This document shows positions 1 to 59,947 of a stretch of 64,000 bases of DNA, piece by piece. Source of the DNA: Tubiluchus corallicola (taxonomy: Eukaryota > Priapulida > Priapulimorpha > Priapulimorphida > Tubiluchidae); the NCBI GenBank assembly GCA_030141605.1, contig JAQGDQ010000130.1, positions 205,974 to 269,973 of the forward strand, given 5' to 3'. The position numbers and the translations under genes are program-made. Under the pieces are notes generated by a model, which ran no database searches, was not told the origin of the DNA, and saw only the letters and a list, made by a program, of their open reading frames with translations. Every line of letters starts with the position of its first letter. Position 1 is the stretch's first letter.

Positions 1-2700
1 GCTAATGTGTTTTACGTAGCTCTTGCTACAGAAAGAATTATTTTGCTATAGTCTTTGTTAAATATGTAGTCATAACTGTTATACACTACACAAGTTGTAA
101 CGTCTTTGTTTTGTTCGTCTGTGCCATTCTGTTTCTACAATGCACTAGTGTACTTGTACTTTTTGTTCTGTTCGTTCTATATTAACTATCCATATCTCAG
201 TTTTGCCAACGTACTTAGCCATGTGTGGATTAAACCACAGGGGTAACAAGTCCTTTCTTTTTGACATTTGGTCCTGCTTATAATATCCAATTCTTTTGGA
301 CATGATTATCAAAAACATATTATGCCAAATTTTATGCAATTCAGAAAAGTGGTTGCATCTGAATATGTTGTTTAGTTCCATTATTCATATCATATGTTAC
401 TGTTTGAACATGATATTGGTTATTTACATCATATATATATAACATGTTGTAATTTGTTAGGTGTATTATACAGATTATAGCTATATAATTTATGCTCTAT
501 AATAATTGGTTAGTTTTTATATTTTGTGTTTCTTTATGCATTCGTATTTAACCAAATGACACATCTCCACGTAATTCTTTATTATTTTATCCCAAAAATT
601 TGCGTTTATCGATCAAATGTAGATATTTACAACAACCAAACATTAGCACAAAAATCGTGATTTAATAACATTGTAGAAAAATATTTCTCTATGTACATAT
701 TGGTCTCTGTAACGACCGTAGTGATTCGACATGTAAAACAACCAATGAATGGAAACCAATAATTACTAATAACTCGAGAATACTTAGTTCTTTTACGTAA
801 CAAAGAAAATGCTCCTACATATACAATTTTGTCCATGAAACTATATCCACGGGTTCTATATGGTTAGCAAAACAGGTACAGAAACATGCCTACAATGTAA
901 AAAAAATGTGTGGAAAATGTCTCCCAAAAACAGTAAACAAAAAATGAGATTTAACAATTATAGATGGTATAACTAGTGAAAGCAAAATCGTTACAAGGTT
1001 CAAAATACTCAATATTTTTTGTAATGTTAACTAATCATGGAAAAAATGTTTGAGTGTTGCACGTTACACGTACTTGCATGAAAGTTTTCCTATTCATTCA
1101 TCAATTTCGTTTTTGCAAATGTAAAACAGTCCTGAAATGGTAAAAAAACTGATCAACTGACAAGAAAATGGTTTCCTAATCATGACATGTCATTGGAAAT
1201 TTGAATAAAACATCTGTAACAGTCCGCCTCAGTTATGGTGTGATAACATAACAGCTATATAGAACAGGCCTTTACCATAGAAAAGCTTCCTTTTGGACTT
1301 TTGACTAACAAAAGTACTCAGACAAGTACCGAATTTCCAAAATTTTGAAGCAACAAAAAGCAAAACAATGTACAGTACTCGGTACTACAGTACAGTAACA
1401 CGAGGACAAAAGAACATTTCAGGAGAGTGCAAATACATAGACAACAAAGCACAATATGTGTGAAAACAGAAATCCAAAAGATCTAGATGAAACATTATTG
1501 TACATTGAAGAACAAAACTCATGCACTTACAATTTTTTTTAACTTTTTTGGATAATTTGCTAAAACAAGAATACATAATAATAGTTTTTCATAGGATAAA
1601 AGTCACTAGTGCAGAATTCTTATTTAGATTACAGTACATTAACCAGCAGCATTATGTTATTGTCGCTGGTGTACTGCCATTCAATTAATTAGCTGTATAG
1701 TATCAACAAATTATTCACTAATAAATTATTTACTCTATAAACAATCAAATTATGCTTCTAGTCCAGCTAGGCTTCACTCAATTAATTTCTGAAAATAACA
1801 AGACTAAATATTTTGCATTAATTCTTAACATGAATAAACATAAATAACAGTTTAAATTAACAAATGAAATCATTGCCTAACAATAATAAGCACTTACACA
1901 CAGTATTTTATTAAATAGATCAAGTCCAATCATTAGTGTAGTATTTAACATGTTATCTCAGTAACTTGTTATCTGGATAACGTCTTGGAATCCTTTTACG
2001 AACTTTAAACACAAAGCTAATGACACTGCACGACCTCACAACACTGACCAAGAGAAAATGTTCATACAAAATAAATACTACGTTATCAAAAAGTCACATA
2101 AAGTGTCATCCCTGAACAGTCACAACATTTTGACATAAGTATGCAAAAATTTGTACAATTTAGAAGACTCACAACCATAAAACTCATCATCTTAGCTCGA
2201 TGATTGACTCGTTTTAAATCAATTTATCAATTAATAATAAGTAACAAAACTCAAAAAGTATCACAAGAAAAATGGAGAACAACGATTTCACACTTGGATT
2301 AGTCAGAAATTGTGGTAAACATATGCAAAAATCACAGATATGGTGCTGTATGTTTGTGGTGCAAATTCTATTAACATACTTACATAATCTATGTGCAACC
2401 TACGTGTACAAAAAATGCAGCTGCAATATAATTTTAAGTGTGGAATTCAGCACAATTAACACTAGGCGTACACACAATTTCTACTGCATTATGGTTCTGA
2501 AAATTGAGTATGATTGAAATTTTTTCGTACCATCATATGTTTAACAAGTTTCTGATTTTCGTTTTTAATTCCGACAGCACAGAATTTTCAATTTTTTAAT
2601 GTTAACCTGGGCAATTTACATCACCTCACGCACATGCCTAATATGCTATTGTGAGCATTGACTTTACAGTGCCCTGACAGTATTGTCTACAAGTCTGTAA
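1..2700. other. AT-rich intergenic sequence, no gene seen
   Basis: I see no exon with family resemblance, codon bias or paired splice signals in this stretch. The longest open frames are under 120 codons, cysteine/phenylalanine-rich and typical of chance frames in AT-rich DNA. Part of it may be the 3' UTR or downstream flank of the SH2D4-like gene, since that minus-strand gene stops at 3011. A minus-strand AATAAA (plus-strand TTTATT) lies near 1907. Confidence 0.5.
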
Positions 2701-2712
2701 TTAATGCCTGTA

Positions 2713-2939
2713 CAGGGTGTTCCAAAAGAAATAGTGCATTCGCAAATCCTATAATCATAGCAATATAACACTGTACAAAATGCAGTAAGTGAGGTCACAG
2801 TAAACAGCATGCACTTCCAGCAGTAACAATAATCTCTTATCATAACATCTTCACACTGAACTTTATTTTTTGTGATTTGATCGGCATGTTTCAGCACATC
2901 AGTATATTTATACGACACTGTTTCTTCTGAAACATCCTG
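2713..2939. mobile_element. Mariner-type MITE, copy 1
   Basis: A non-autonomous inverted-repeat element. The left end reads CAGGGTGTTCCAAAAGAAA and the right end is its imperfect reverse complement, ending TTTCAGAAGAAACAGTG when read inward. Both ends are flanked by TA, as expected for Tc1/mariner-class insertion. It is about 227 bp with no transposase. Similar ends occur at 30127-30382 and 34309-34542, so this is a family. It lies just past the SH2D4-like stop codon and may be in that gene's 3' UTR. Confidence 0.65.
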
Positions 2940-3010
2940 TACTATCAAAATGAAAAAGGCAAGTGTAAACTCTAAATAGACCAATTCTAATTCTGATGTG
3001 AGAAGACTCA

Positions 3011-14355
<11,345 letters not shown>

Positions 14356-51537: not shown

Positions 51538-54500
51538 ATGGATTTTCGCATGAAAATAATTTTCCATTTCTATGTGTGCTGTTATTTTCTCTCAGCAAAA
51601 CAGATAAGTAGACCCAGGGCACCTGTGCAGGCAAAACCGACTGAGATACGAAAGATTGAGGGAAATCTTGTTTCTCTTGCCTCTTCAGAGAATGCAAAAC
51701 AGCCTGAGGATGACGACGTTCAGGAGAGGCTTGATGAAATCATGCGCGACGAGGCTAAAAAAATCGAAAATATTCTTCGTGCTCAGCATCAGGAAAGGAA
51801 ACGAGTGTTTAACAATTCAGAAGCTAGTATGCGTTACATATGTATTATAGTTTTTTTTATATTTAAATGTACACGTTTAGGTCAGTAATCAGAAGCGTAT
51901 ATCCACCAAAAATGTATTAACGTAATTCAAAAGGTAATTTAATTGATCAAAATTATGATTTGATTAACGAGCCCAGCTTTCAATGTCAGGGCTTGCTTAA
52001 TGTATGTAGGCAGTTGTGAAGGAATCATTCCCAAAACTTAATAATTCTATATTTAACGTCATTTAATGACATAACTGGTGAGGTTATTATATTACTGCAA
52101 ATAAGAATTACCTCTTACTTATTTGCTACATTAATTTAGTATATCTACTCACATTACTATCCACTGACAAACACTTTCAGTGTGAATGTACATACTAAAA
52201 GATTATATTTCGTTGTAGTAACAATTACTATTAGTGCTAGTGTATAAAACGGTAGTAAGTATTGTTGTTGTAAAAACCGAACAAGATTTTTTGACAATTG
52301 TAGGATGTGGTACTCGCAAAAAAACATGCCCTAAAAACTCTGTGTGTAAAGTTACTAACGAAACAATGAACTGCGTCTGCCTGGAGCTCTACATCAAAAT
52401 TTTTGATAGTTGCATTTGTAAGTTTTTGAGAAATATTTATGTAAATTAGAGAAAATAGTCTTAATATTGCCTAAGATTCCTCTATCAAAGGATCAGGGTC
52501 AGAAATGGATCAGCTTTTGAAACCTGTGACCATTAGCGATTAGGTCAAATTCACACGTACACGAATTAAATTGATTCATACGTGTACTAATGTTTTTGTT
52601 GTTTAGTCCAACGCGCAGTGATGGGACCCAATGTAGATGCTTGTGGCAGGACTGAAATTTATCTCATCAGAAATAGTCTTTTAAGACGTGTCATTGAATT
52701 GGCAGAGGCATCTTAGCCACATTCGGATGTGAACTCATCCTCCCTCTATATTGAAGTAAATAGTCTGATCTGGTCAATGAAGTTACCTGCAGCGAGGTGG
52801 TTACAAATTATTTCCGTTAAATGATCAGAACTGGCATTAACTAATTTCATAGCGAAGCATACACCACGACCGATTAACTCCTTCCAACATTTAAATATTA
52901 AAATTCGTAATTTGTAAATTAGCTTTTTTGAGCGCGATGAGTTACACAAAGCGTATGACGTTACCCTCCCTCGTTTCTAGACTCATAATTGTAATCTATT
53001 GTAAAAGGTAATTAATACATCACTAAATTATAGACTTATTTTTATGCAATGCTCTTTTTATATTATCCATTAGGCAATGTCCACATGTCTATTTCTTTTC
53101 AGATAAAGCAATTGTTCTGACAATTTATGGCGTGATTAGTGTCTTTATACTGATTGTAGTAACACTCGCCACATGTACCTGCAAAAAGTACAGGTAGTAT
53201 TACACGAACTATATACCTATGTAGCACATACTAAAAGCATATGATAGGTGAATATGATAAAAGTACAGATTTAAGTTCTACAAGTTTTTTGCATTCTGTG
53301 TTATCAGACTTTTATCGTATTGGCTGTTCCCAGTTTTAGATACTAAATACTTTTGATCACGACATTATAAGAAAATAATAGAATCGTTTGAAAATTACCA
53401 CACTGATGTTGCAAACGCTTTTGTGTAAATACCAGAAATTTTAGGTCAATCCCTTAGCGTTTTTTCCAATGATGCAGAAGTTTTAAAACAGTAAATGAAA
53501 AATAAAAAACGAAAAAAAATTGTATCACAGTTGTTAAAATTTAAGACGAAGGTGTTTCTTCCAACAGCCGACAAGTTTTGTACTTGTTGAAGGAAAATTT
53601 GGCTCCAGCGCTCAACAATTTTTGTGTTCAAAGTCATAACTAATCCTTCACTAAAACATAAGCTTTTACAACCTTAAATCCTACTCTCATTACGAACATT
53701 CAATTTATTTTATTATAACTTGCTGTAATACTTATTTATTTTGCTTTTTTATCACTTCCTTGCTAACGGTATATTTAAAACTCCGCCATATTTTTTGTTG
53801 CGCGAGATGGATGACGTATTGAAGTATTTCTTTACGCATGAGTAAGCATATTTCTCGGTTGTCCTTCATCATTTAATGGCTTCATCAACCCTGACTTACT
53901 GACTCCATGCGTAGTAACGTAGGTACCATGTTCCCAGTCAAAAAAATCTCTGTTGTGTATTTTTTGGCTTCTTTGTTGTTACTTTCAAGTGGAGTTACAG
54001 TATCAAAATACTAGCTGCCTCCATGTATAAACTGCTGGCTACTCTGCTGACTGCCACTTGGGCATCACAGTCTTTATTGTCTCTGCACTAATCTCTGGAC
54101 TTTCGTGCCTCAAACTGCTGAAATAAATTTGTTGCTAAAGTGTATCACGTGCTAACTTCTTTTTAACACTGTTTGCGAGATGGGTGTGTTGGTAAAAATC
54201 TTCTCAGTAAGCACATCTTGTTTTAAATTAAAATAATTCCATATGCAGATTTTATCACCGGACTTTTTAACAACAGCGAAATCAAATTCCACTAGCTCAT
54301 TTATGCAAAATACTGTGCAGAACACTCAAAATTCATCCACGTCTGTGAACGCCAGGGCACAATACGGGTAAGAATGGCAAGGATTTTTTTCGTTACAGCT
54401 AACGTTACTTTAAAATTTGTGAACCGTATAAGCAGTATCGTAAATCAACAACAAGAGACAGTTACCGATCCTCCCATTATTGTTTCTACCATAAATGACA

Positions 54501-57500
54501 ATTTTCCATCCTTTTTTATCGAAGAGCCTGAAAACATTGAAATGACTAATGATGCCTTTTCAGTAAATGAGGTGTATCTCAAACTTATTAAGTTGGAGCC
54601 TTTTAAAGCCACAGGCCCGGATTATGTTCATGGTTTTATTCTCAAAACCTGCGCCCCCCCAACTTGTTTTACCACTGTTTTTGATTTAAAAAAAAGTCTT
54701 GACTCAAATGTCACTCCTATTCCAAATAAATCTTCTGCAACTCCTTCATGAGATGATTTAAGGCCTATTTCTCTAACACCGGTTGTCGCCAAATGCATTG
54801 AGTCCATTATATGGGATGAGGTACTTCTATTTCTTGTCAATTCTGAGCATATCTGCAAAACCCACCATGCCTCTTTACCAAATCGCTCTGCTGTAACTAA
54901 TTTATTTTCTTGCTTAAATGAATGTACTGAACTTTTCGATGATGCATCCTTACCTAGTATTGATATTTTACGCTTAGATTTTAGAAAAGTACCATTTACA
55001 GATAGTCACCATCTTACGTCCTTTGGGATAAAATATTCTTATTAATAACGTCATTCTTAATTGCACGAAACATGGTGATGGCGGTCTTCACGGCAATGTA
55101 CACATTCGAAGTTCACGTGAAAAATACCGGAGTTCCTGGGATAAATGCCAATTTTTATTTTTAGTAACAAATCTTTATCAGTCCTTTATTTTCAGATGAC
55201 ATCGCTCCACATTTAAATTTATATACATATGCATGTGCATGTGTGTGCATATGGATTATAGGTAAACAGTAAGTTTATATACACGTTTATAGCTTACTAT
55301 TAATTTTATTATGTTTTTGTAGAGGTATTCTCAATTCTAAGTTTTAAGCGTTTTTTATGATTTCTGCACTACTTCATTTAATTTTTATACTATATTACAG
55401 AAATTCATTTCTGTACACTGTACAACTACAGTATACTATAAAGTAAAATATTAGAATAAGGGCAACATGTACAGGAATTTTATGTTGCATCTTGACGTAA
55501 TACCAATACTGTATATGTGTGCGAGATAAAAATGATTCTATTCTATTCTATTTAACTTTCAAGAGTTTGCCGGCCATAACTTCAAAACTACAGAACTGTA
55601 AACTTGTAATTTTTAAAATCAAACAACCAAAATGAATGAATCGTAATATCATGCTGTGAAATTGCAACTTTGCAGAACACTTGCTTCTCATACTATTGTA
55701 GCCTAAACTTCGACATAGTATTTCTGCATCATCCGATATAAAGATTGGCTTTCATACTGCAGGAGTGACAAAAAGAGAGAAAAGATTTCAATACAGGAAT
55801 CCACTTCAAAGCACGAAACGTCTTCAAACCAGGAAAAGCAGGACAATATCAATGATGATGGAAAGGAATTTATTTCAATAAATGAGTAAGCATATTTCTC
55901 GGTTGTCCTTCATCATTTAATGGCTTCATCAACCCTGACTTACTGAGTCCATGCGTAGTAACGTAGGTACCATGTTCCCAGTCAAAAAATCTCTGTTGTG
56001 TATTTTTTGGCTTCTTTGCTGTTACTTTCAAGTGGAATTACAGTGTCAAAATACTAGCTGCCTCCATGTATAAACTGCTGGCTACTCTGCTGACTGCCAC
56101 TTGGGCATCACAGTCTTTATTGTCTCTGCACTAATCTCTGAACTTTCGTGCCTCAAACTGCTGAAATAAATTTGTTGCTAAAGTGTATCACGTGCTAACT
56201 TCTTTTTAATACTGTTTGCGAGATGGGTGTGTTGGTAAAAATCTTCTCAGTAAGCACATCTTGTTTTGAATTAAAATAATTCCATATGCAGATTTTAGGA
56301 CCGGACTTTTTAACAACAGCGAAATCAAATTTCACTAGCTGATTTATGCAAAATACTGTGCAGAACACTCAAAATTCATCCACGTTTGTGAACACTTGAT
56401 ATAGAGCGAGGGCACAATACGGGTAAGAATGGCAAGGATTTTTTTCATTACAGCTAGCGTTACATTAAAAATATTTTAAATCGTAAATCAACAACAAGAG
56501 ACAGTTACCGATCCTCCCATTATTGTTTCTACCAAAAATGACAATTTTCCATCCTTTTTTATCCAAGAGCCTGAAAACGTTGAAATGACTAATGATGCCT
56601 TTTCAGTAAATGAGGTGTATCTCAAACTTATTAAGTTGGAGCCTTTTAAAGCCACAGGCCCGGATTATGTTCATGGTTTTATTCTCAAAACCTGCGCCCC
56701 CCAACTTGTTTTACCACTGTTTTTGATTTCTGCACTACTTCATTTAATTTTTATACTATATTACAGAAATTCATTTCTGTACACTGTACAACTACAGTAT
56801 ACTATAAAGTAAAATATTAGAATAAGGGCAACATGTACAGGACTGTATGGTCGTATGTTGCCCTCGCATTTGGAATTTTATGTTGCATCTTGATGTAATA
56901 CCAATACTGTATATGTGTGCGAGATAAAAATGATTATATTCTATTCTATTTAACATTCAAGAGTTTGCCGGCCATAACCGCAAAACTACAGAACTGTAAA
57001 CTTGTAATTTTTAAAGTCAAACAACCAAAATGAAGGAATCGTAATATCATGCTGTGAAAGTGCAACTTTGCAGAGCAGTTGCTTCTCATACTATTGTAGT
57101 CTTAACTTCGACATAGTATTTCTGCATCATCTGATATAAAGATTGGCTTTCATACTGCAGGAGTGACAAAAAGAGAGAAAAGATTTCAATACAGGAATCC
57201 ACTTCAAAGCACGAAACGTCTTCAAACCAGGAAAAGCAGGAAAATTTCAATGATGATGGAAAGGAATTTATTTCAATAAATGAGTAAGCATATTTCTCGG
57301 TTGTCCTTCATCATTTAATGGCTTCATCAACCCTGACTTACTGAGTCATGCGTAGTAACGTAGGTACCATGTTCCCAGTCAAAAATCTCTGTTGTGTATT
57401 TTTTGGCTTCTTTGCTGTTACTTTCAAGTGGAGTTACAGTGTCAAAATACTAGCTGCCTCCATGTATAAACTGCTGGCTACTCTGCTGACTGCCACTTGG

Positions 57501-59897
57501 GCATCGCAGTCTTTATTGTCTCTGCACTAATCTCTGAACTTTCGTGCCTCAAACTGCTGAAATAAATTTGTTGCTAAAGTGTATCACGTACTAACTTCTT
57601 TTTAATACTGTTTGCGAGATGGGTGTGTTGGTAAAAATCTTCTCAGTAAGCACATCTTGTTTTAAATTAAAATAATTCCATATGCAGATTTTATCACCGG
57701 ACTTTTTAACAACAGCGAAATCAAATTCCACTACCTGATTTATACAAAATACTGTGCAGAACACTCAAATGATTCTGATAAAAATGATTCTATTCTATTC
57801 TATTTAACATTCAAGAGTTTGCCGGCCACAACCTCAAAACTACAGAACTGTAAACTTGTAATTTTTGCAATCAAACAACCAAAATGAATGAATCGTAATA
57901 TCATGCTGTGAAATTGCAACTTTGCAGAACACTTGCTTCTCATACTATTGTAGCCTAAACTTCGACATAATATTTCTGCATCATCCGATATAAAGATTGG
58001 CTTTCATACTGCAGGAGTGACAAAAAGAGAGAAGAGATTTCAATACAGGAATCCACTTCAAAGCACGAAAAGTCTTCAAAGCAGGAAGAGCAGGAAAATT
58101 TCAATGATGACGGAAAGGAATTTATTTCAATAAAAAGTATGTAAGAAATTTAATTCGCAAATTTTAATTGCTATTTAAATTGTTACCATTAGGAGACCAA
58201 TTCAAAAACTAATCAACAATGATAACATTTTACCTGAAATTATATTTAACACATAACACACTTTAAAGCATACAAGAATGATATAGATTTTGCTACTGCT
58301 TTACAATACAGATAGCAATAGTGGCGAGGCAACACTAGCAAAAGTGATGTCTCCAGACACGGATTCATCGTTCTCGTACACTACTCGCATATTAACATCA
58401 GGCACAACTGGGCAGCAGATATGTGTTCATCCTCAAAACAGGGTTTCATCACTGTACAGTGGTGCAGTACCCACATATAACCCTTGTTTGATGGCGAAGC
58501 GCAGCAAATCATTATCATCCCAGTGTAGAAAACCAGATCATTATAATATATATAACAGACTAGAGTACGACACATACATGGCTATAGCACACGAGACAGT
58601 ACCATCGGTCAACCGAACTTTCCAGAACAAGCCACCATTTAAGCAGCAACCAAGACTTGGGGGTGATCAGCTCGTTATGTTGCATAGTCAAAAAGAAGCA
58701 ATGATGTCACAGTTACCAAGGCCTGGTCATGGTGGTGATGAAGCTCAGGTTTCAAGGTCTAGTCAGGAACAGTTAAAAGTTAAACAGCCAATGCCAGTAC
58801 GAGCTAGTCAAGGGCAAAAGCCAGTTAAGGTCAAACCACCTTTTCAAGGTCAATCACCAAGTCAAATGCTGCTGCATCCTGATCGGGAAAGTAAACAAAG
58901 TGAACACATACTATATTCTAAACAAAGCCGCAAGGAACAACAACAGGTGGGTAGTGAGCATAAGCCACCAACCAAGCAGCGACTGAAGCGTAGTCCAGAA
59001 AAGTCATCAGTCATTAAAAGCTTATTTAATCGTGTTAAGACCAAACAACAAACTAAGCATTTATTGAAGGGTGATAAAAACAAATCATCATCTGACCAAC
59101 CGCCAAAGTCTAAAAAGAACAATCCAGTAAATAAACTGGCCGACCCTAATCAAGGACAATCCCAAAATCAACGCTTTGATCAAAGCCACCTTGAGCAACC
59201 ACAAAAGTCTGGTCAGATCAACGAGATCATATATAATGAGGCGCAAAATCCTGGTCATAGTGAATCACTAGCTGAGCAATCAAAACTTGGCCAGACTAGG
59301 CCACTGCCGAATGAAGTTCCAAAAAGTACTCAGCCACCGATTCTTGGTTCTAACATGACATCACCCAATCAGTTACCGATGAGTGATCGTGATAAAGGCC
59401 TACTTGACCAGTCATCAACTCGTGGTCAAGGCACACCATTACTAAGACATGGCCAGGGCAAGCAACCACCTAAGGAAAACCCATTAATACTGTCAAGAAA
59501 ATCAGATACAGTAGATGGCCCAGTAAGCCCCGTGCCAAATCAGTTACCGATGCATGGTTGCGATAAGCGACTACCTGGTCAGCCATCAACTCGTGGTCGA
59601 GGTACGCCAGTACTGAGACGTGGTCGGGGCAAGCGATCACCTAAGAAAAACCCATTAATGGTGTCAGGAAAACCAGGTACAGTAGATGGCCTAGTAAGCC
59701 CCACGCCAAATCAGTTACCGATGCGTGGTCGTGGTCGTAGTCGTGGTAGAGTACAACTTGGTCAGCCATCGACTCGTGGTCGAGGTACGCCTTTAGTGAA
59801 ACGTGGTCGGGGCAAGCGGCCACCTAAGGAAACTCGGTTAATGAAGTTACTAAAATCAGAAACAGTAGATGATCTACTAGGTAGTCCAATATTATAA
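51538..59897 (+). CDS. Orphan type I membrane protein: signal peptide, EGF-like module, TM helix, triplicated cytoplasmic exon, basic repeat tail
   Basis: Model exons: 51538-51826, 52304-52417, 53103-53193, 55763-55885, 57161-57283, 58015-58136, 58312-59897. All are GT-AG, phases agree, 2,448 nt, 815 aa. The N terminus MDFRMKIIFHFYVCCYFLSA looks like a signal peptide, then an acidic helix-prone region. One EGF-like module follows with cysteines at 98, 105, 111, 120, 122 and 133 (C-x6-C-x5-C-x8-C-x-C-x10-C) and an NET glycosylation sequon. A TM helix spans about 137-159, followed by the stop-transfer CKKYR. Inside, three near-identical 41-residue copies precede a 528-residue Gln/Lys/Pro/Arg-rich tail with a tyrosine cluster (Y365, Y368, Y373, Y376; YNRL fits YxxPhi sorting) and three RG-rich repeats at 639-813. 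I recognise no family. A receptor, ligand or adhesion role is possible but unproven. An upstream in-frame ATG at 51394 exists, but it would bury the signal peptide. Confidence 0.65.
52304..52417 (+). CDS. EGF-like module exon of the orphan membrane protein
   Basis: One exon carries a complete EGF-like cysteine pattern, opening CGTRKKTCPKNSVC and closing NCVCLELYIKIFDSC. It is flanked by phase-1 introns on both sides, the usual arrangement for mobile EGF exons. The C-x-C between cysteines 4 and 5 is typical. There is no calcium-binding consensus at its start. Confidence 0.75.
52622..52740 (-). repeat. SINE tail/core repeat, inverted copy in the EGF-TM intron
   Basis: On the minus strand it reads TTCACATCCGAATGTGGCTA, CCAATTCAATGACACG, then AAATTTCAGTCCTGCCACAA. 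It corresponds to the tail repeats at 35815-35925 and 4630-4715. Confidence 0.5.
53103..53193 (+). CDS. Transmembrane exon of the orphan membrane protein
   Basis: The exon encodes a 23-residue hydrophobic helix (AIVLTIYGVISVFILIVVTL then ATC) and the cytoplasmic anchor TCKKYR. It begins in phase 1 after CTTTTCAG and ends in phase 2 at GTAGTA, which fits directly onto any of the three copies of the duplicated exon downstream. Confidence 0.7.
53660..53830 (+). repeat. Dispersed repeat Q, left half
   Basis: Matches the first half of 19215-19555 (AAATCCTACTCTCATTACGA, TTTTTTGTTGCGCGAGA). It ends exactly where duplication unit 1 starts. Confidence 0.5.
54369..55560 (+). pseudogene. Non-LTR retrotransposon remnant in duplication unit 1
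   Basis: Broken frames include EVYLKLIKLEPFKATGPDYV and LRPISLTPVVAKCIE, matching the finger region of LINE reverse transcriptases (K..GPD.I...LK; RPISL......K..E). A frame break and a stop (TGA after SATPS) interrupt it. Sequence downstream ends with GATAAAAATGATTCTATTCT, an (ATTCT)n tail typical of a LINE 3' terminus. The catalytic YXDD region is not present. A shorter copy of the same fragment is in unit 2. Confidence 0.65.
55055..55140 (+). repeat. Dispersed repeat Q, right half
   Basis: Matches the second half of the copy at 19215-19555 (ATGGTGATGGCGGTCTTCAC, GGCAATGTACA). It is embedded in the LINE-derived intron of unit 1 and missing from units 2 and 3. Confidence 0.5.
55763..55885 (+). 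CDS. Duplicated cytoplasmic exon, copy B1
   Basis: Follows CATACTGCAG; encodes a 41-residue hydrophilic segment beginning SDKKREKISIQESTSKHETS and ending KEFISIN. It has 123 nt and is phase 2 at both ends with donor GA|GTAAGC, so it can be included or skipped without frame change. Confidence 0.6.
56500..56960 (+). pseudogene. Duplicated, internally deleted copy of the LINE remnant in unit 2
   Basis: It is the same as unit 1 up to CCACTGTTTTTGATTT, then jumps to CTGCACTACTTCATTT, skipping about 670 bases present in unit 1 (54690-55360). The shared GATTT at both edges marks the deletion breakpoints. The (ATTCT)n tail is present at about 56936. Confidence 0.65.
57161..57283 (+). CDS. Duplicated cytoplasmic exon, copy B2
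   Basis: Differs from B1 at only two bases that I can see, with GAC AAT ATC in B1 and GAA AAT TTC in B2, both changing residues. It has the same acceptor, donor and phases as B1. Confidence 0.6.
58015..58136 (+). CDS. Duplicated cytoplasmic exon, copy B3 (ancestral 3' end)
   Basis: Has 122 nt and ends ATAAAAA|GTATGT in phase 1, which is the only copy able to join the last exon (starts AT AGC, phase 1). It differs from B1/B2 in several codons, all still open. It probably retains the original exon end; B1 and B2 have a junction-derived end. Confidence 0.65.
58312..59897 (+). CDS. Last exon: cytoplasmic tail of the orphan membrane protein
   Basis: The 1,586-nt exon starts after TTTACAATACAG in phase 1 and runs open for 528 residues. 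Codon use and absence of stops over this length in such AT-rich DNA support coding. The tail is strongly basic and disordered: a tyrosine cluster near its start, then Lys/Gln/Pro-rich sequence with recurring PPKQ/KQPP and GQ motifs, then the RG-rich repeats. It ends SETVDDLLGSPIL. Confidence 0.8.
59364..59888 (+). repeat. Three in-frame tandem repeats in the membrane protein tail
   Basis: Repeat 1 at 59364-59534, repeat 2 at 59535-59705 (each 171 nt, 57 aa), repeat 3 from 59706 with a 4-residue insertion. Each has PNQLPM, a short charged link, STRG.GTP, a basic RGRGKR.PK-type segment and a (T)VDGLVSP-type end. Repeat 1 is the least basic (GQGKQPPK), repeat 3 the most. The RGRGKR pieces resemble AT-hook or RG nucleic-acid-binding segments, but the AT-hook core GRP is not present. 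Confidence 0.9.
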
Positions 59898-59947
59898 TTT
59901 ATGAATTTATTTAAATTCTAAATCTGTGTAATGACTAATCTTAAGAA

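Follow-up and report, generated by a model that had tools for sequence, protein, structure and literature searches.

How can an exon whose two ends lie in different phases come to be repeated in tandem while the reading frame is kept? Exon duplication is usually thought to require an already symmetric exon, and a locus in the priapulid Tubiluchus corallicola raises the question of how an asymmetric one might become stackable. The window analysed here is a stretch of 64,000 nucleotides (C1198:205974-269973) from a 343.5-Mb assembly with about 33-37% G+C. It carries on its forward strand a receptor-like gene in which a signal peptide, an EGF-like module, a TM exon, three copies of a short exon (B1, B2 and B3) and a long tail exon follow one another in that order.

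Elsewhere in the same assembly, the sole 18S match to a universal 3' pattern (L053, C560:244300-246400) looks 5'-truncated and lies beside other sequence, which suggests that this assembly lacks the rDNA array or has collapsed it. A search of the assembly for the COX1 family gave no match.

Structure of the gene and its family

The features of the gene are collected in Table 1. Exon 1 supplies the start codon, a signal-peptide-like N terminus and a charged ectodomain, and it leaves in phase 1. A Pfam search of the receptor returned EGF-like models alone, all below cut-offs. The last exon of the window gene contains a 171-nt repeat in 2.9 copies, at 59367-59871. AATAAA, a possible poly(A) signal, is found at the end of all B copies (55877-55882, 57275-57280 and 58129-58134); exon B of the C403 paralog has AATAAT in this place.

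Paralogs were sought by protein search of the same genome, which identified two further full-length members, C403 and C246. When joined at homologous splice sites, the C403 gene can be read without interruption as a protein of 845 aa, with one B in the order TM-B-last exon. Its last exon holds an 87-nt (29-aa) repeat in 16 copies with 93% match (L047, positions 1766-3164, minus strand), which forms most of the C403 cytoplasmic tail and is absent in the window gene. The C246 gene also has a single B, with in-frame stops in exon 1. Over exons 1, 2, TM and B, the dN/dS between the window gene and C403 is about 0.67, so the family is coding, if only under weak constraint. The indels that separate the window, C403 and C246 copies of B keep the frame, which supports B itself as a coding exon.

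Table 1. Positions of exons, tandem units and repeat insertions at the locus, numbered from the first letter of the window
Feature	Position	Strand	Remarks
Exon 1	51538..51826	+	ORF with GTATGC donor; 59% identical exon in C403, 54% in C246
Exon 2, cysteine-rich EGF-like module	52304..52417	+	splice-joined ORF; conserved in C403 and C246
TM exon	53103..53193	+	exit phase 2; 70% aa identity in C403, which has the same splice sites
Dispersed-repeat insertion, intron 3	53504..55117 (approximate ends)	+	absent from the equivalent intron of C403 and C246
Nested LINE reverse-transcriptase fragment	~54368-54989		based on RT-like ORFs in related copies
Tandem unit 1	53838..55881	+	2044 nt; begins at the ancestral breakpoint, which lies within the dispersed repeat
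Exon B1	55763..55885	+	123 nt; phase 2 in, 2 out; ends with ATGA (4 nt), which like the GTAAGC donor derives from the start of unit 2
Tandem unit 2	55882..57279	+	1398 nt; internal deletions
Exon B2	57161..57283	+	123 nt; phase 2-2; fused end as in B1
Tandem unit 3	57280..58133	+	854 nt; larger internal deletion
Exon B3	58015..58136	+	122 nt; phase 2 in, 1 out; ancestral copy; needed to pass from TM to last exon
Last exon	58312..59897	+	long basic low-complexity cytoplasmic tail; entry must be phase 1

Tandem units and their junctions

Three adjacent units carry homologous B exons, where each of three paralogous loci has a single one. Blocks of about 300 nt recur in up to three copies with 96-98% match, beginning at the unit starts of Table 1. 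The aligned units differ at 41 of 1354, 28 of 851 and 33 of 851 positions (3.0-3.9%). Each also has private deletions, the largest of about 1.2 kb, and those of units 2 and 3 account for their shorter lengths. Together with the shared junctions and the different ends of B1/B2 and B3, these blocks confirm the tandem duplication with a breakpoint inside an exon that the initial annotation had proposed, while its start for unit 1, 53836, has been corrected to a position two bases later.

Exons B1 and B2 end in TTTCAATAA followed by ATGA/GTAAGC (the slash marks the exon end), and B3 ends in TTTCAATAA followed by AAA/GTATGT. One A is common to both sides of the breakpoint, which places the cut after AATAA or AATAAA. 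The sequence joined at the cut starts with ATGAGTAAGC and yields the ATGA/GTAAGC end, 1 nt longer than that of B3. One breakpoint lies within exon B and the other within intron 3, and the GTAAGC donor lies in a formerly intronic repeat. Both internal junctions are identical to the base; the fusion therefore took place a single time, and copying followed.

The dispersed repeat in intron 3 has the 8-mer TGAAAAAT on both of its sides (53496-53503 and 55118-55125), resembling a target-site duplication. At the insertion point the window lacks about 70 bp that the paralogs have. Further copies of the repeat occur in C4 (L018), in C1209 (L020) and elsewhere. Nested within this repeat is a LINE reverse-transcriptase fragment; related copies have CR1/L2-like motifs, and the one in the window is interrupted by stop codons. 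A Pfam search of the ORF inside the window repeat gave no match.

Reading frames across the array

To see which exon series remain open, all combinations were joined. The frame is open to the stop at 59897 with B3 alone (733 aa), B1-B3 (774 aa), B2-B3 (774 aa) and B1-B2-B3 (815 aa), so every isoform with B3 accommodates the extra copies. Series with no B, B1, B2 or B1-B2 are out of frame at the last exon. Because only the combinations containing B3 stay open, B3 appears obligatory, and B1 and B2 are predicted to be free additions of 41 residues each. A mutually exclusive exon cluster was considered and rejected, since B1 or B2 alone shifts the frame and the series must end with B3.

The 1 nt gained at the fused end turns exit phase 1 into phase 2, and the fusion has thereby converted the exon from phase 2-1 to 2-2. 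Had the entire exon been copied with its native donor, splicing to the next copy would in every case have shifted the frame; hence a breakpoint within the exon, or an altered donor, was needed. The joined series bear out the earlier claim that the B3 end is the sole fit to the last exon, and the exon ends and the single-B paralogs support the claim that the new GA/GTAAGC donor shifts the 3' phase from 1 to 2. The series TM-B1-B2-B3, TM-B2-B3 and TM-B3 had been listed as in frame; all three are, and the list had omitted B1-B3, which is also open.

Donor strength and predicted use of B1 and B2

The splice donors were scored with two matrices, both crude: a generic human matrix, and a family matrix derived from 11 donor sites within this gene family. 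With the generic matrix, the new donor scored 0.07 versus -0.81 for exon 1, 0.38 for the TM exon and 2.30 for B3, and 37 of the 367 GTs in 53195-59900 scored as high. With the small family matrix it scored 8.42, a value reached by 4 of the 367 GTs, including its own two copies. The new donor is the top-scoring GT in or near B1 and B2; its exon side (TGA) is poor.

Our preferred reading, to which we give a probability of roughly 75%, is that a tandem duplication together with a repeat-derived donor, followed by exchange between the copies, produced the array, and that B1 and/or B2 would be included before the obligatory B3. One sub-case of this reading holds that B1, B2 and B3 are always included, so that the tail is longer by a constant 82 residues and there is no alternative splicing. 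It contradicts the word 'cassette' in the initial annotation, and we regard it as a serious possibility that falls somewhat short of an even chance. All three B acceptors are identical, and the family lengthens its tail by other routes as well, with the 29-aa repeat in 16 copies in C403 and the 171-nt repeats in the window gene; nevertheless, constant inclusion and cassette use fit the sequence equally. The extra B exons would suit a disordered tail tolerant of length change.

A stronger form of the preferred reading supposes that the breakpoint turned an asymmetric, obligatory phase-adaptor exon into symmetric cassettes, stackable before it in any number, whose regulated inclusion (none, one or two) would set the length of the juxtamembrane tail. 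This is a doubtful extension.

The duplication may also be real and B1 and B2 dead, skipped by the spliceosome so that TM-B3-last alone is made. Such skipping would be harmless, as B3 alone restores the frame, and it is in keeping with the weak exon side of the new donor and with the lack of any sign of constraint on B1 and B2. Since the duplication, 7 sites have varied in about 118 exon columns versus 36 in about 733 intron columns, and the B1-B2 differences both alter residues; exon and intron have diverged alike, and conservation of the B copies does not exceed that of the intron around them. However, the duplication is too recent for selection to be informative on exon use: a divergence of about 3% leaves little time for decay, and absent constraint says little. 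Both copies moreover retain an acceptor identical to that of B3 (GGCTTTCATACTGCAG), have no stop and no indel, and possess the best-scoring donor of the neighbourhood. Loss of both exons from the transcript is therefore judged unlikely.

Reality and direction of the duplication

An assembly artefact such as merged haplotypes would explain why the units differ by only 3-4%, but it is very improbable. The copies differ, each unit carries private deletions and substitutions, both junctions fall at the identical base, the outer flanks are single-copy and the locus is found on no second contig, which together speak against a simple duplication in assembly.

The direction of change was read from the paralogs. 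Two indels, of 15 and 9 nt, and many substitutions separate the C403 exon from B3, yet it is still phase 2 in, 1 out; the C246 exon differs from B3 by indels of 15, 9 and 3 nt. A third locus, C2279, retains no more than B, the last intron and the beginning of the last exon, and its indels break the frame. Window sequence upstream of the repeat showed a similarity to C2279 no better than that of shuffled sequence, so this locus is taken as a fragment only. The B donors are TGG/GTACGT in C403, CGA/GTACGT in C246 and AGA/GTACGC in C2279, all of the B3 type, and each B runs on into a last intron homologous to that of the window. Intron divergence is 15-23% between the paralogs and the window and 3-4% between tandem units, indicating that the single B is the older state. 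As all three single-B loci have the B3-type donor and the last intron, the B3 end is ancestral.

The left edge was placed with the other repeat copies. The alignments of L018 and L020 start at about 53613-53630 of the window and pass through 53838 with small indels only, and the left edge of unit 1 is therefore ancestral too. Both outer edges thus consist of ancestral sequence, which leaves the two internal junctions, with their GTAAGC donor, as the derived state. The single-B paralogs and the repeat copies that cross the left breakpoint thus support the evolutionary claim made at the outset, that the fusion created the B1 and B2 ends. The reverse polarity, with the B1/B2 end ancestral and the B3 end acquired, is rejected as practically untenable: the donors of C2279 and C246 (GA/GTACGC and GA/GTACGT) superficially resemble GA/GTAAGC, but in these loci the alignment continues through the last intron with B3 and fails to do so with B1 or B2, single-copy B ends like B3 in C403, C246 and C2279, and the dispersed-repeat copies show the left edge of unit 1 undisturbed.

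The C246 locus (192201-193961) has about 10% intron divergence from C403, the exon 1 stops and little of the last exon, and is probably a decaying copy.

Proposed sequence of events

In the scheme that best accounts for these data, a single ancestral exon B, phase 2 in and 1 out, would have joined the TM exon to the cytoplasmic tail, and the dispersed repeat would have inserted into intron 3 prior to the tandem duplication. A tandem duplication in which the two sites shared no more than 1 nt would then have joined a site 3 nt short of the end of B to the interior of the repeat. The upstream copy would have lost its native donor and gained a new one 4 nt into the repeat (ATGA/GTAAGC), the added nucleotide making it phase-symmetric (2-2). 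The one shared base (A) at the breakpoint suggests end joining or template switching for this first step.

Later exchange between the copies, presumably homologous, could have produced the third unit with its identical junction. To see whether one unequal crossover gave rise to the third unit, variable sites were polarised within the array. In the left part, 3 sites group U2+U3 versus 2 for U1+U2; in the right part, 3 group U1+U2, 2 group U1+U3 and 1 groups U2+U3. These sites hint at a hybrid middle unit, though they are too mixed to carry such a claim. In the resulting gene, B1 and/or B2 are predicted to be spliced between TM and B3, each adding its residues to the juxtamembrane tail, where they may serve as spacers of tail length.

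How often such a fusion might be expected was estimated by going through the pairs of breakpoints in exon B and intron 3. With the donor required to lie within 12 nt, 2.2% of pairs produced a symmetric exon whose donor equalled or surpassed the new one; the share was 5.5% for a limit of 60 nt and 7.5% for 150 nt. With about 2-7% of break pairs sufficient, comparable cases should exist yet be uncommon, and a systematic search is possible.

Comparison with known systems

In classical tandem exon duplication, symmetric exons give rise to adjacent, near-identical coding copies with their introns, and the frame is kept. The present locus is alike in its neighbouring near-identical coding exons and introns and in the kept frame; it differs in that the ancestral B was asymmetric and its symmetry was made by the breakpoint. 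In transposable-element exonization, repeat-derived sequence provides splice sites. Here, too, the donor comes from a dispersed repeat, although the repeat contributes just the predicted 4 exonic nt and the donor, placed by duplication and not by in-situ mutation.

The closest parallel is the potato RdRp gene, where a tandem duplication across an intron-exon boundary combined an inherited acceptor with a newly activated GTAAG donor from formerly exonic sequence, and where the duplicate was proved by reads (PMC4974935). In both loci the duplicated stretch spans from the intron interior into the next exon and brings its acceptor, tract and branch site along, a cryptic GTAAG donor lies near the junction, and the copies differ at a few bases. 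In the priapulid gene, by contrast, the donor comes from an intronic repeat just beyond the fusion, 119 of the 122 nt of the exon are copied, there are three units, the phase changes from 2-1 to 2-2 and the splicing is predicted from sequence. The Rogers/Hellsten model, also set out in PMC4974935, in which a segment of exon bearing AGGT gives rise to an intron, likewise obtains a new spliced interval from a tandem duplication; here there is no AGGT exonic segment, and the acceptor and intron body pre-existed.

A text search of open-licence literature found no title or abstract with a change from asymmetric to symmetric phase. The class of event, tandem duplication across an intron-exon boundary, is thus known, and the repeat-derived donor and the change to phase symmetry are unusual. 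The locus, whose two ancestral edges survive in outgroup sequence, shows a route from an asymmetric to a stackable exon: a breakpoint deletes the donor, repeat sequence close by provides a replacement, and a 1-nt change in length sets the phase.
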